A stretch of DNA of 64,000 nucleotides from Paenibacillaceae bacterium (lineage in GTDB: Bacteria > Bacillota > Bacilli > Paenibacillales > Paenibacillaceae): contig REGQ01000058.1 of assembly GCA_004134985.1 (NCBI GenBank), positions 372,001 through 436,000 of the forward strand. The letters run 5' to 3'. Below, piece by piece: positions 48,479 to 52,081 of this stretch; position 1 is the stretch's first letter, and each line of letters starts with the position of its first letter. The notes beneath the pieces are model-generated. The model saw nothing but the letters and a program-made list of their open reading frames with translations, was not told the DNA's origin and made no database searches. A program made the position numbers and the translations under genes.

Positions 48479-48772
48479 ATTAGCATTCGGGTTTTGTTGT
48501 CACGTTTTATTGCGGTGTTGCTGCTCGTTATTCCGGGGATTGCCGCCACATACGGATTTTTGGCGATAAAAAATTCACTGTTTGATTATTTTTCGAGCTT
48601 TGGGGACGATGGCGCAACATCTGTATTCGCCTGGGGTCAATTATTGCTCGGTATTGTACTCTTTCTGGCAGGCGTAGGCTTTATTGGCGGATGGATTTTT
48701 TTCCGGGACCGGAAACGCAATTACCTGGCTCCGCGCTTTCGCAAGAAGCGGCCACGGCCGAATCGGCAATAA
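48479..48772 (+). CDS. DUF2627 membrane protein (YqzF-like)
   Basis: A 97-residue protein with two membrane segments (LLLVIPGIAATYGFLAI and LLLGIVLFLAGVGFIGGWIFF) and the conserved tail FFRDRKRNYLAPRF. The family lies upstream of bkd genes in Bacillales. The only codon at proper distance (8 bases) from GTAGGGGG is ATT 48479, in frame with the open sequence; the first conventional codon is TTG 48494, which is 23 bases away. ATT initiation is therefore likely, as in E. coli infC. Divergent from lpdV. Confidence 0.8.
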   Translation: MSIRVLLSRFIAVLLLVIPGIAATYGFLAIKNSLFDYFSSFGDDGATSVFAWGQLLLGIVLFLAGVGFIGGWIFFRDRKRNYLAPRFRKKRPRPNRQ

Positions 48773-48815
48773 CTATGCTGCTTGGGCCACTCATACAAAT
48801 GGTAATGCAATGGAA

Positions 48816-48870
48816 AGGGCTCTCCCAAAAATCATTCATAATGATAGGGACAGCCCTTTTTTTATTTTTT
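48816..48870 (+). terminator. Terminator after the DUF2627 gene
   Basis: AGGGCT and AGCCCT (48816-48821, 48852-48857) with inner TCCC/GGGA and ATCAT/ATGAT pairs, followed by a long T run. Confidence 0.85.
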
Positions 48871-48877
48871 TAAAATA

Positions 48878-49408
48878 TCATTCCAACTGCCTGATTTTTC
48901 GAGCAGGAACACCCGCATAAATACTGTTCGGCTCGCAATCTTTGTTTACTAAGGAATTAGCTGCAATAATACAGCCTTCTCCTATTGTAACCCCGCCTAA
49001 AATGGTTGATCTCGTGCCAATCCAGGTACCGTTTCCGACAATAATCGGTTTAGCATCGACCTCTCCTGCTCGCTGATCAGGCGCACCGATAAGATGGGAA
49101 GCTGTACAGAACATAACTTCCATCGCTATAGAACAACCATTCCCAATCTTAACATGGGCCAAATTTTCAAAATAACACCCGTAGTTTATAAAAGAACGCT
49201 TGCCAACATGTAAGTTTCTGCTTGCAATAAATGTTCTACCTAACATGCTTGGTGTACGGATATCCAATTTAAACAACTTATAGATGAAATAACGTAAAAA
49301 TCGTGGTGTAAGTATCGATGATGCAAAAACATTGATCCAAAAATGCCACCAGATGCTTTTTAAATCTATAAAGGACCATTTAATCAAAGTATGAAGTTGT
49401 GTCTTCAT
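48878..49408 (-). CDS. Hexapeptide-repeat acyltransferase
   Basis: A 176-residue left-handed beta-helix acyltransferase with hexapeptide repeats (VKIGNGCSIAMEVMF, IIVGNGTWIGTRSTILGGVT, IGEGCIIAANSLV) and the C-terminal SIYAGVPARKIRQLE of the maltose/galactoside O-acetyltransferase group. The N-terminal 50 residues are more hydrophobic than usual (WWHFWINVFASS), suggesting membrane association. AT-rich compared with spo0A and bkd genes, so it may be a late arrival. Substrate unknown; polysaccharide acetylation is a common role. Confidence 0.85.
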   Translation of the reverse strand: MKTQLHTLIKWSFIDLKSIWWHFWINVFASSILTPRFLRYFIYKLFKLDIRTPSMLGRTFIASRNLHVGKRSFINYGCYFENLAHVKIGNGCSIAMEVMFCTASHLIGAPDQRAGEVDAKPIIVGNGTWIGTRSTILGGVTIGEGCIIAANSLVNKDCEPNSIYAGVPARKIRQLE

Positions 49409-49468
49409 TTTTAACTCCTATCCAATAAAAGATAAACTAATTATATTAGATAATAATGGTAATCACAA

Positions 49469-49523
49469 CAAAAAATCCATCTCCGGACTGGTCATTTCAA
49501 ACAACCAATCAGGTGATGGATTT
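49469..49523 (-). terminator. Terminator after the LytTR gene
   Basis: On the minus strand AAATCCATC and GATGGATTT pair around a loop with a smaller ACC/GGT-type stem, followed by a T run. Confidence 0.8.
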
Positions 49524-49627
49524 ATGTTTGTTAATCAATGTTGTGATGTCGATAGTAGGAGTATGTTGTTTCATGGATGTAAGTGGGAAATGCAAGTTTA
49601 CTGAATGATAGGAAATGTATGAGGTAA

Positions 49628-50014
49628 TTAAACGCGATATGTTTTCATTGAGCGTTCACGTAAATAATGTTTCTGAAATAAACCGTCCGCTTCCAGTTCA
49701 CGGTAGCAGCTTCGCGATACCGGGGCATGGTGTCCCCCTGGAAATCGCATAACATCACGGTCACTATCATATCCCGTTGCTGCGTTTAAATTGGCGATAT
49801 AACTGCGGTCGATTCGCCGAAACCCGTCTCCAAACTCGGTAAATACCGCCATCATTTCTTCAATTGTTACCGCTGGTTGATATTCTGACCCGTCACGCAT
49901 ATGGTAGACGCTGCCCTTCTTAACGGTACCAATATATGCGACATCTTCCCAAGCGAGACGAACCGCCGTAATCCCGCACTTGTTTCGTTTAATTGCATAA
50001 AAGTGCGTATCCAA
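49628..50014 (-). CDS. LytTR-family DNA-binding regulator without receiver domain
   Basis: The 128-residue protein is nearly all LytTR domain: AIKRNKCGITAVRLAWEDVA, YHMRDGSEYQP, GFRRIDRSYIANL and APVSRSCYREL. The receiver domain of AgrA-like regulators is absent. TTG 50014 follows GGAGGGG. It is the last gene of a three-gene unit with an AgrD-like peptide and a membrane protein, reminiscent of LytTR regulatory systems, in which a membrane protein restrains a stand-alone LytTR protein. Regulon unknown; autoregulation is typical. Confidence 0.9.
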   Translation of the reverse strand: MDTHFYAIKRNKCGITAVRLAWEDVAYIGTVKKGSVYHMRDGSEYQPAVTIEEMMAVFTEFGDGFRRIDRSYIANLNAATGYDSDRDVMRFPGGHHAPVSRSCYRELEADGLFQKHYLRERSMKTYRV

Positions 50015-50030
50015 CGTATCCCCTCCGCTG

Positions 50031-50162
50031 CTACTTATGGATCGTCCGGAGTTCTTCCGGCATTTCTGGCTTGTTAATAAACAAATAGGAGCCTGTCAAT
50101 ACAAAAAGCCCTGCTACGGTTGTCAATCCAGCCGCGATAATCTGGAATGCACGCTTTTTCAT
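50031..50162 (-). CDS. AgrD-like cyclic lactone autoinducer precursor
   Basis: A 43-residue peptide with an amphipathic N-terminal helix (MKKRAFQIIAAGLTTVAGLF), a short core LTGSYLFI and the acidic AgrD-type tail NKPEMPEELR. There is no cysteine; Ser25 could close a five-residue lactone ring (SYLFI), as Ser does in the lactone autoinducer of S. intermedius. Perfect AAAGGAGGTGA site, ATG at 50162. It is 16 bases from the LytTR gene and 46 bases after the membrane gene. No AgrB-type protease is coded next to it, so processing must come from elsewhere if it occurs. Confidence 0.82.
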   Translation of the reverse strand: MKKRAFQIIAAGLTTVAGLFVLTGSYLFINKPEMPEELRTIHK

Positions 50163-50208
50163 CGTTCCTCACCTCCTTTGCGCAATATACCAAATCCGTA
50201 AAGCTATC

Positions 50209-50874
50209 TTATTCTTTCTGCTCACGGTCTCTGCGGAGGGAATAATACAAAAATACAGGGAGAGTCGCCATAAAGATGATGCTCGCCAAAACAACATAAG
50301 ATTCGTATTGGTTTCGAAATACGACGGAAGAGATCGCTGCTGTCGAGATTCCTATGCCAATAACGACAACCATAACGGCATTCGTCCCGCGGACATGCGT
50401 ATTATGTCGGAGTGATGTTGGAACGTAATCAAAGCCGAGATTATTCGTCCTTACCGTCCAGCTTGCCGCCAGAAACACAACTGCAGATAATAATTGGGTC
50501 AGCGCACCGGTTAGCATGTTGTTCTGAACGTCAGCTAGCGAAATATTTATCATCATATAAAGCGTTAAAAAAATGATGCCCTGCACAGCAAATCCGAAGA
50601 CAAGTGCCGCCCCGTTCATCAGAAGCGAGTATAGCAGCGGCACGCGGAATAATACGGTCAGCACGACAATCGACAGTGCAAACTGAATATAGGACGAACC
50701 TGCACCAATTTCGGGCACCATGCGCGTAAAGAACGATACGTGACTCATAATGAATGAAACCAGCGCAATGTAAACATAATTGCCACGCAGCTCAAACCGG
50801 AAAAGCACGAGCATAAAAATAAATAGTGATAAATACTCAACGGTTGACCCGGCAATAAATAAGGCGTAACTCAA
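50209..50874 (-). CDS. Membrane protein like the AgrC sensor domain, no kinase
   Basis: The 221-residue protein has about seven transmembrane segments (residues about 4-26, 32-50, 60-80, 84-108, 120-142, 163-183, 192-213) and stops with SLRRDREQKE where AgrC-type histidine kinases would continue into the kinase. No AgrB motif with its His and Cys pair is visible. TTG 50874 stands after AAGGGAGCGG. Together with the AgrD-like peptide and LytTR gene it looks like a sensor/inhibitor that works without phosphotransfer. Alternatives: a peptide exporter or an anti-activator. Confidence 0.7.
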   Translation of the reverse strand: MSYALFIAGSTVEYLSLFIFMLVLFRFELRGNYVYIALVSFIMSHVSFFTRMVPEIGAGSSYIQFALSIVVLTVLFRVPLLYSLLMNGAALVFGFAVQGIIFLTLYMMINISLADVQNNMLTGALTQLLSAVVFLAASWTVRTNNLGFDYVPTSLRHNTHVRGTNAVMVVVIGIGISTAAISSVVFRNQYESYVVLASIIFMATLPVFLYYSLRRDREQKE

Positions 50875-51012
50875 TCTAACCGCTCCCTTTTACGTATAAT
50901 TTGTATGCTTGCGGTATTTTTCGCCCAAGGCCGCCATTCTAGTCTGACAGCTTGTCCGAGGGCGCGATATCGTTAACAACTTTCCGTGCGGCAGTACAAT
51001 AGGTTTGCTTCT

Positions 51013-51040
51013 ATCATAGCATCAAATTGTATCAAATCAA
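51013..51040 (-). promoter_or_regulatory. Sigma-A-type promoter candidate for the LytTR/AgrD unit
   Basis: TTGATT (51035-51040) and TATGAT (51013-51018) with a 16-base spacer, read on the minus strand, about 140 bases ahead of the membrane gene. A direct repeat ATCAAAT with 10-base period overlaps it. This stretch (50,875-51,205) holds no gene; apart from this and the spo0A terminator I see nothing else in it. Confidence 0.5.
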
Positions 51041-51075
51041 CATACTTTTCTAAAATTTTCCTTACTGTCATGTAG

Positions 51076-51128
51076 AAAAAAACCACTTATTTATTGGCCC
51101 GTAAGGACCTTACAAATAAGTGGTTTTT
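51076..51128 (-). terminator. spo0A terminator
   Basis: AAACCACTTATTT pairs with AAATAAGTGGTTT around a 20-base loop; the minus strand continues with seven T. Confidence 0.92.
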
Positions 51129-51205
51129 GGCAAACGAACATTTCTGCATGTCAGCCGTTTTCAAGTCGCCGGCAACATGCGTTCTCTTCTCTAATCTTCC
51201 CCCTT

Positions 51206-52009
51206 TCAGCTCACCTTATGCTCAATTCGCAGCTTGTCTGCGACCATCGCGATAAACTCACTATTGGTAGGTTTCGACTTGCTGATGTTGATCGTGTAAC
51301 CAAACAGATGGCTGATGCTGTCAATGTTGCCGCGTGTCCAGGCAACTTCGATCGCATGACGAATGGCACGCTCGACACGAGAAGGGGTTGTTTTGAACTT
51401 CTCAGCAATCGCCGGGTAGAGGGTTTTAGTAATTGCACCCAAAATTTCGATATTGTTGTATACCATCGTAATCGCTTCGCGCAAATATTGATATCCCTTG
51501 ATATGGGCCGGAACACCGATTTCATGAATGATGCTCGTAATGTTGGCATCCAAATTCTTTCCTTTAGCAATCGGTACAACATTGGATTTAATCGTAGTGG
51601 TGTATGTTGATGAAGAAGTAATTGATGAATTGCCAACCAATTGACGGATACGGTTTGCAAGTATTTCCATATCAAACGGTTTCAATATGTAGTAAGAGGC
51701 GCCAAGCTGTACAGCTTTTTGAGTAATATTCTCCTGTCCGAATGCGGTAAGCATAATAATTTTGGGCATAGGAGACAGATTCATTTCCCGCAGTCGTTCC
51801 AGAACACCCAAACCATCCAAATGAGGCATAATAATATCCAGAATCAGAACATCAGGCAGTCTTGGAGCTTCTTCCAAATGTCGGAGTACTTCTTCCCCAT
51901 TGTAAGCCACTCCGGAAACCGTCATATCACTTTGTTCTGAGATGTACTCAGACAGTAAGTTGGTGAACTCACGGTTGTCATCAGCCAATAACACTTCTAC
52001 TTTTTGCAA
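51206..52009 (-). CDS. spo0A: Sporulation master regulator
   Basis: The 267-residue response regulator has a receiver domain (residues about 1-125: [23 protein letters not shown] with the phosphorylated Asp, [15 protein letters not shown]) and the Spo0A DNA-binding domain (about 150-265: [36 protein letters not shown]). It is activated by the phosphorelay and binds 0A boxes. TTG 52009 follows AAGGGAGGACC; the upstream open frame is not used. Next to the Agr-like locus. Expression is likely from a sigma-H promoter with 0A boxes. Confidence 0.97.
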
Positions 52010-52081
52010 GATTTGGTCCTCCCTTAATCTGATTCTTCGATTAATGAAATCAATTTCAGCTAACATTCTTTTGTATTATTA

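Follow-up and report, generated by a model that had tools for sequence, protein, structure and literature searches.

The Agr quorum-sensing system of Staphylococcus, Listeria and Clostridium consists of AgrB, AgrD, AgrC and AgrA, and its signalling is taught as that of a two-component system. A second type of system relevant here is that of the LytTR Regulatory Systems (LRS), whose natural ligands are, to our knowledge, largely unknown. In LRS such as HdrRM and BrsRM, the regulator is a bare LytTR protein and its partner is a membrane protein without a kinase (PMC6193735). A report on phages Davies, Emery and Abouo describes AgrB, AgrD and AgrC-like proteins without a HATPase domain (PMC3901668), in passages that make no mention of a LytTR gene in these phages. 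We compared with these systems a three-gene locus in a window of 64,000 nucleotides (the whole stretch of DNA analysed, from a Paenibacillaceae bacterium), which in our analysis most likely works like both Agr and LRS, while being a strict member of neither. As in Agr, there is an AgrD-type precursor with a five-residue ring and a PxELx tail, a polytopic sensor and a LytTR output domain, and an enzyme of the AgrB family is present in the complete operons. Unlike Agr, the sensor has no histidine kinase, the LytTR protein has no receiver, and agrB, which an Agr system encodes in the same locus, is missing. The pairing of a bare LytTR regulator with a kinase-less membrane protein is shared with LRS (PMC6193735), but the membrane protein has no DUF3021 or DUF2154 domain, AgrD and usually AgrB are part of the unit, and a search for the direct repeats that LRS carry just upstream of the operon -35 found none with at most one mismatch. 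The gene order also differs, as LRS have the regulator upstream of the membrane-inhibitor gene, whereas the window locus has the membrane protein gene first and the LytTR gene last.

The preliminary description of this DNA had placed three tightly spaced genes at positions 49628-50874, and it was right in both coordinates and content. Family HMMs, built from 34-51 homologues with zero sequences from the triad's own genome, were run over all 621 window ORFs of at least 28 residues, and exactly three ORFs scored significantly, all on the minus strand: an AgrC-sensor-like membrane protein, hereafter MP (50209..50874, 221 aa, TTG start; leave-genome-out HMM 1.8e-62), an AgrD-like precursor peptide (50031..50162, 43 aa; leave-genome-out HMM 8.7e-15) and a LytTR DNA-binding protein without a receiver domain (49628..50014, 128 aa, TTG start; PF04397, HMM 4.5e-19). 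The triad is confirmed as real, and chance is excluded. The same HMM scan found no AgrB ORF in the window, in agreement with the earlier remark that no agrB adjoins the triad. The gaps are 46 bases between the MP and AgrD-like genes and 16 bases between the AgrD-like and LytTR genes, and a clear Shine-Dalgarno sequence lies upstream of each of the three, that of the AgrD-like gene being AAAGGAGGTGA. Upstream of the MP gene there is a promoter-like site, TTGATT-16-TATGAT with TG before the -10 (51013..51040, minus strand), which is a consensus match only; the promoter-like total in this region was 8 versus 4.2 in shuffles, about 2 sd above. The triad is found 331 bases from spo0A (51206-52012) and on the same strand, in what comparison with relatives indicates to be a variable slot (48773..51205) bordered by spo0A and a DUF2627 gene (48494-48772), and a hexapeptide acetyltransferase gene (48878-49408) is also inside this slot.

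The structure of MP, predicted with AlphaFold2 from 41 MPs (pLDDT 92.3), has seven membrane helices, and the chain stops after the seventh rather than being fused to a histidine kinase as an AgrC-type sensor would be. MP has no Pfam match at E<=5 and therefore belongs to neither DUF3021 nor DUF2154; a sequence search for relatives of solved structure gave no match up to E 10, and Foldseek gave none at E<=0.001 in PDB or BFVD. In G105, which belongs to another family, three tandem AgrC-like histidine kinases sharing the MP sensor domain adjoin a single AgrB and a single AgrD (L090:4133-8367), with HATPase_c at 73 bits in the one kinase scanned. Because MP is of the same family as the N-terminal half of these kinases, it is a kinase-less sensor, and the view of it as an AgrC-sensor-like protein ending without a kinase holds. 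A kinase with an MP-type sensor was searched for in the triad's genome and none was found, the open frames at the three matches being 226, 226 and 238 aa long. An apparent MP-kinase fusion in Thermobacillus was rejected, the frame being a long upstream extension.

The LytTR protein carries the only Pfam domain of the triad (PF04397, 39.6 bits against a cut-off of 22.6), and its 128 aa hold LytTR only, without the receiver that AgrA has in addition, as had been described. It has no PDB sequence match at E<=1. The protein is very divergent, and the AU test accepted a place among the MP-clade LytTRs and one outside them alike (AU p 0.55 and 0.51); being divergent and unplaceable, it may have been swapped or be under relaxed constraint. 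The region upstream of the operon gave no LytTR-type direct repeats in a search for 9-mer pairs with at most one mismatch and 18-25 base spacing, which diverged repeats would escape. A bare LytTR gene also occurs in several Paenibacillus in a conserved place between a ~645-aa prkA-like gene and a ~500-aa gene, with no Agr genes nearby (L095:6306-6692, L096:5578-5964, L097:5952-6428, L098:6494-6874 and L099:5600-5983).

With regard to the peptide, the match to the NCBIfam AgrD model TIGR04223 is sub-threshold (15.4 bits, cut-off 19), and identity is 44-65% to 10 of 11 relatives and 38% to the remaining one. An alignment of 12 AgrD sequences of the clade shows Phe20, Gly24, Ser25, Pro32, Pro35, Glu37 and Arg39 to be invariant. 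In the clade as a whole, the ring position is occupied by Ser in most sequences, by Cys in Cohnella and P. nasutitermitis, and by nothing else. This restriction to two residues is what the ring-closing nucleophile of a (thio)lactone would call for. The predicted ring of the window peptide, S-Y-L-F-I (residues 25-29; 50076..50090, minus strand), directly precedes the NKPEMPEELR tail, so that on sequence the peptide has both the putative (thio)lactone ring and the recognition tail of an AgrD precursor. The earlier assignment to the AgrD type is thus borne out by the HMM score, the Ser/Cys-only ring position and the intact cleavage tail. In a separate clade of loci (L001, L050-L054, L056, L060-L062), the AgrDs have a conserved Lys (KPIL, KPYI, KPMI, KPMY and similar) and neither Ser nor Cys at the usual ring position, which raises the question of a lactam or linear signal.

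Of 150 relative genomes, 76 have MP homologues and 114 have AgrB; in the contig search for MP, a single-sequence query matched nothing and an alignment query did. Sufficient flanking sequence was available for 66 distinct MP genes, of which 36 are arranged as MP-AgrB-AgrD-LytTR, exactly in that order, and most of the remaining loci have the same gene set in variants of order or detection. The LytTR ORFs of the family loci are 110-182 aa long and therefore leave no room for a full receiver as well. Given this four-gene norm without a kinase and the short LytTR ORFs, the lack of a kinase is the rule in the family. The preliminary description had proposed a scheme that avoids phosphorylation, and had named a kinase encoded as part of the unit in relatives as evidence against it; the kinase-free family has no such kinase, and the scheme gains support from the four-gene arrangement, without kinase or receiver, being the usual one in Paenibacillales. 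The window locus fits this kinase-free Agr-LytTR cassette, as we delimit it here, with AgrB as the sole missing part. Some relatives have MP-AgrD without an adjoining LytTR gene, and Thermobacillus sp. L012 has MP alone; the P. darwinianus locus beside spoIVB was left out, owing to an N gap and a transposase in the scaffold. We did not find a description of the cellular kinase-free Agr family in the open-access literature, hence its novelty is unproven; the family is apparently widespread, partly phage-borne and undescribed.

The search for an agrB elsewhere in the genome, which had been suggested earlier, was successful. Three agrB genes occur in the triad's genome, and every one of them is accompanied by MP, AgrD and LytTR genes. 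One of these loci, on another contig (C33), is an operon with all four genes and is closely paralogous to the window triad. The two MPs share 43% identity, and the C-terminal parts of the C33 and window peptides are nearly alike (GLFVLTGSYFLINKPEIPEELRT vs GLFVLTGSYLFINKPEMPEELRT), with a predicted SYFLI ring in the former. The AgrB of this operon (G000:C33:250380-250769) is of the same clade. Triads without agrB were also searched for in relatives: they recur in P. montanisoli and P. lignilyticus, where the neighbouring genes are conserved, and agrB-less MP-AgrD pairs occur in P. taihuensis, Paenibacillus sp. OV219 and G089. Such forms are few within the family, as most relatives hold agrB inside the operon. 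The idea that the system is agrB-less by design, for which an AgrB in the unit of relatives had been named as counter-evidence, is therefore given up, and the absence at the window is, judging from these comparisons, a local loss and no basic trait of the system.

All five relatives with agrB-less triads or pairs encode an AgrB of the same clade at another place in the genome. Four of them have it as a stand-alone gene (G061, G008, G026 and G089), and these four AgrBs form one clade (100/97) with the AgrBs of complete operons carrying window-clade MPs; P. lignilyticus has a complete operon and a stand-alone AgrB, both elsewhere, with the AgrB assignment made by BLAST. The AgrB and MP trees match, the orphan AgrB of G061 being sister to the C33 AgrB just as their MPs are sisters. 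A same-clade LytTR stands alone in P. taihuensis, OV219 and G089, and in the first two it is recognisably where P. montanisoli keeps its triad. Since both the agrB-less relatives and the triad's genome have a same-clade AgrB elsewhere, AgrB acting in trans is the simplest reading, and another locus of the genome probably provides the enzyme that processes the peptide, with the C33 AgrB as the candidate.

We consider it reasonably probable that the window locus is an agrB-less paralogue of kinase-free Agr, in which a membrane receptor would directly control the LytTR regulator. An AgrB from another locus, most likely that of C33, would export the AgrD and cyclise it to a serine-lactone peptide around SYLFI. 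The seven-helix MP would then sense the peptide with no kinase involved and would act directly on the free LytTR protein; peptide binding might, for instance, release a regulator otherwise kept at the membrane, or have the opposite effect. LytTR would then act on its targets. Against this scheme speak the divergence of the window LytTR, the upstream search that gave no LytTR-type repeats, and the relatives whose MP gene has no LytTR neighbour. The loss of agrB, the divergent LytTR and a location in an insertion slot, beside a gene end that serves as a prophage attachment site in P. roseus, could also be explained by a decaying kinase-free Agr cassette, perhaps left over from a mobile element, whose circuit is dead. 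This is unlikely in our view, as the three ORFs are intact and have good ribosome-binding sites and a promoter-like site, the ring serine is invariant, the cleavage tail is intact, and agrB-less triads are syntenic in two other species. Near-twin peptides (SYLFI and SYFLI) and two receptors in one genome, together with the MP-only and MP-AgrD loci of relatives, would suit an MP that acts as a decoy or partner, heterodimerising with a histidine kinase encoded elsewhere, or as a quencher soaking up the paralogous SYFLI peptide; the genome yielded no kinase with an MP-type sensor, however, and LytTR accompanies MP at most loci, and we regard this role as improbable.

The preliminary description had also proposed a tie of peptide signalling to sporulation through spo0A, based on the proximity of the two. 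Of ~141 MP loci, about 8 are no more than 20 kb from spo0A, where ~1 would be expected, although these counts were entered by hand and the loci are related to one another, not independent and in some cases phage-borne. Adjacency to spo0A is nevertheless missing in most relatives, those of the same genus included, which have nothing Agr-like there: of the relatives examined, six have an empty interval between spo0A and DUF2627/bkd, others carry various small sets of genes in it, and a few have Agr cassettes there. In P. roseus (G001) the interval contains a ~72 kb prophage with genes for an integrase, a minor tail protein, a terminase-like protein and a DNA polymerase, and a four-gene cassette lies inside it. 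At each end of the prophage is an identical 170-base copy of the spo0A 3′ end (L102:1952-2121 and L058:15128-15297), so that attachment of the phage in spo0A leaves the gene restored. In P. humicus (G042), the locus near spo0A is beside genes like those of the P. roseus prophage. An insertion slot thus accounts for the place of the triad better than a sporulation role does, and the latter we hold to be very improbable and do not retain. We do not call the triad itself a prophage scar, as a search around it for a duplicated spo0A end, the mark of such a scar, found a single copy in the window, which likewise speaks against a mobile-element leftover. Our data suggest that mobile elements use the spo0A 3′ end repeatedly in Paenibacillales. 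Close second partial copies of this end occur 5-62 kb from spo0A in four other genomes (G015:C2 226267/287980; G050:C33 188247/212548; G094:C7 1463581/1484702; G145:C30 870680/875684).

Kinase-free cassettes with MP(s), AgrB, a small AgrD-like ORF and a LytTR gene were found in Brevibacillus phage Davies (L100:2041-4456) and Paenibacillus phage Harrison (L101:2804-4474), near integrase or recombinase genes. The agr cassettes of the Brevibacillus phages are the same as that of the family, with a LytTR gene also in Davies and Harrison, and differ from the window triad in being phage-borne and in having agrB. In Harrison, AgrD was matched weakly (E 0.018); the LytTR of Davies was recognised by the family HMM and missed by Pfam. 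A tblastn search of phages with the MP protein gave no match, and the HMMs found MPs in phages reached through AgrB. The phage LytTR genes are annotated as hypothetical or peptidase, and we found no description of them as regulators in the open-access literature.

More broadly, kinase-free Agr may form a working class of its own within peptide quorum sensing, with a seven-helix receptor that controls LytTR directly and without phosphorylation. The class would be common in Paenibacillales and move in temperate phages (one of which integrates in the spo0A 3′ end), with dispersible parts and one AgrB serving several peptide-receptor sets; we see the case for this as evenly balanced. If true, a cyclic peptide would drive transcription via a membrane receptor and a bare DNA-binding protein, and kinase-free Agr would bridge Agr and LRS. 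The phage-borne copies raise a testable role in lysis-lysogeny, and the SYLFI/SYFLI pair allows a clean test of specificity and of AgrB in trans. Also, the ends of tRNA genes are typical integration sites, and four window-clade Agr loci directly follow a tRNA-Met-Met-Leu(taa) cluster: L040 and L045 are complete, L041 has MP only, and in L037 no LytTR was seen.
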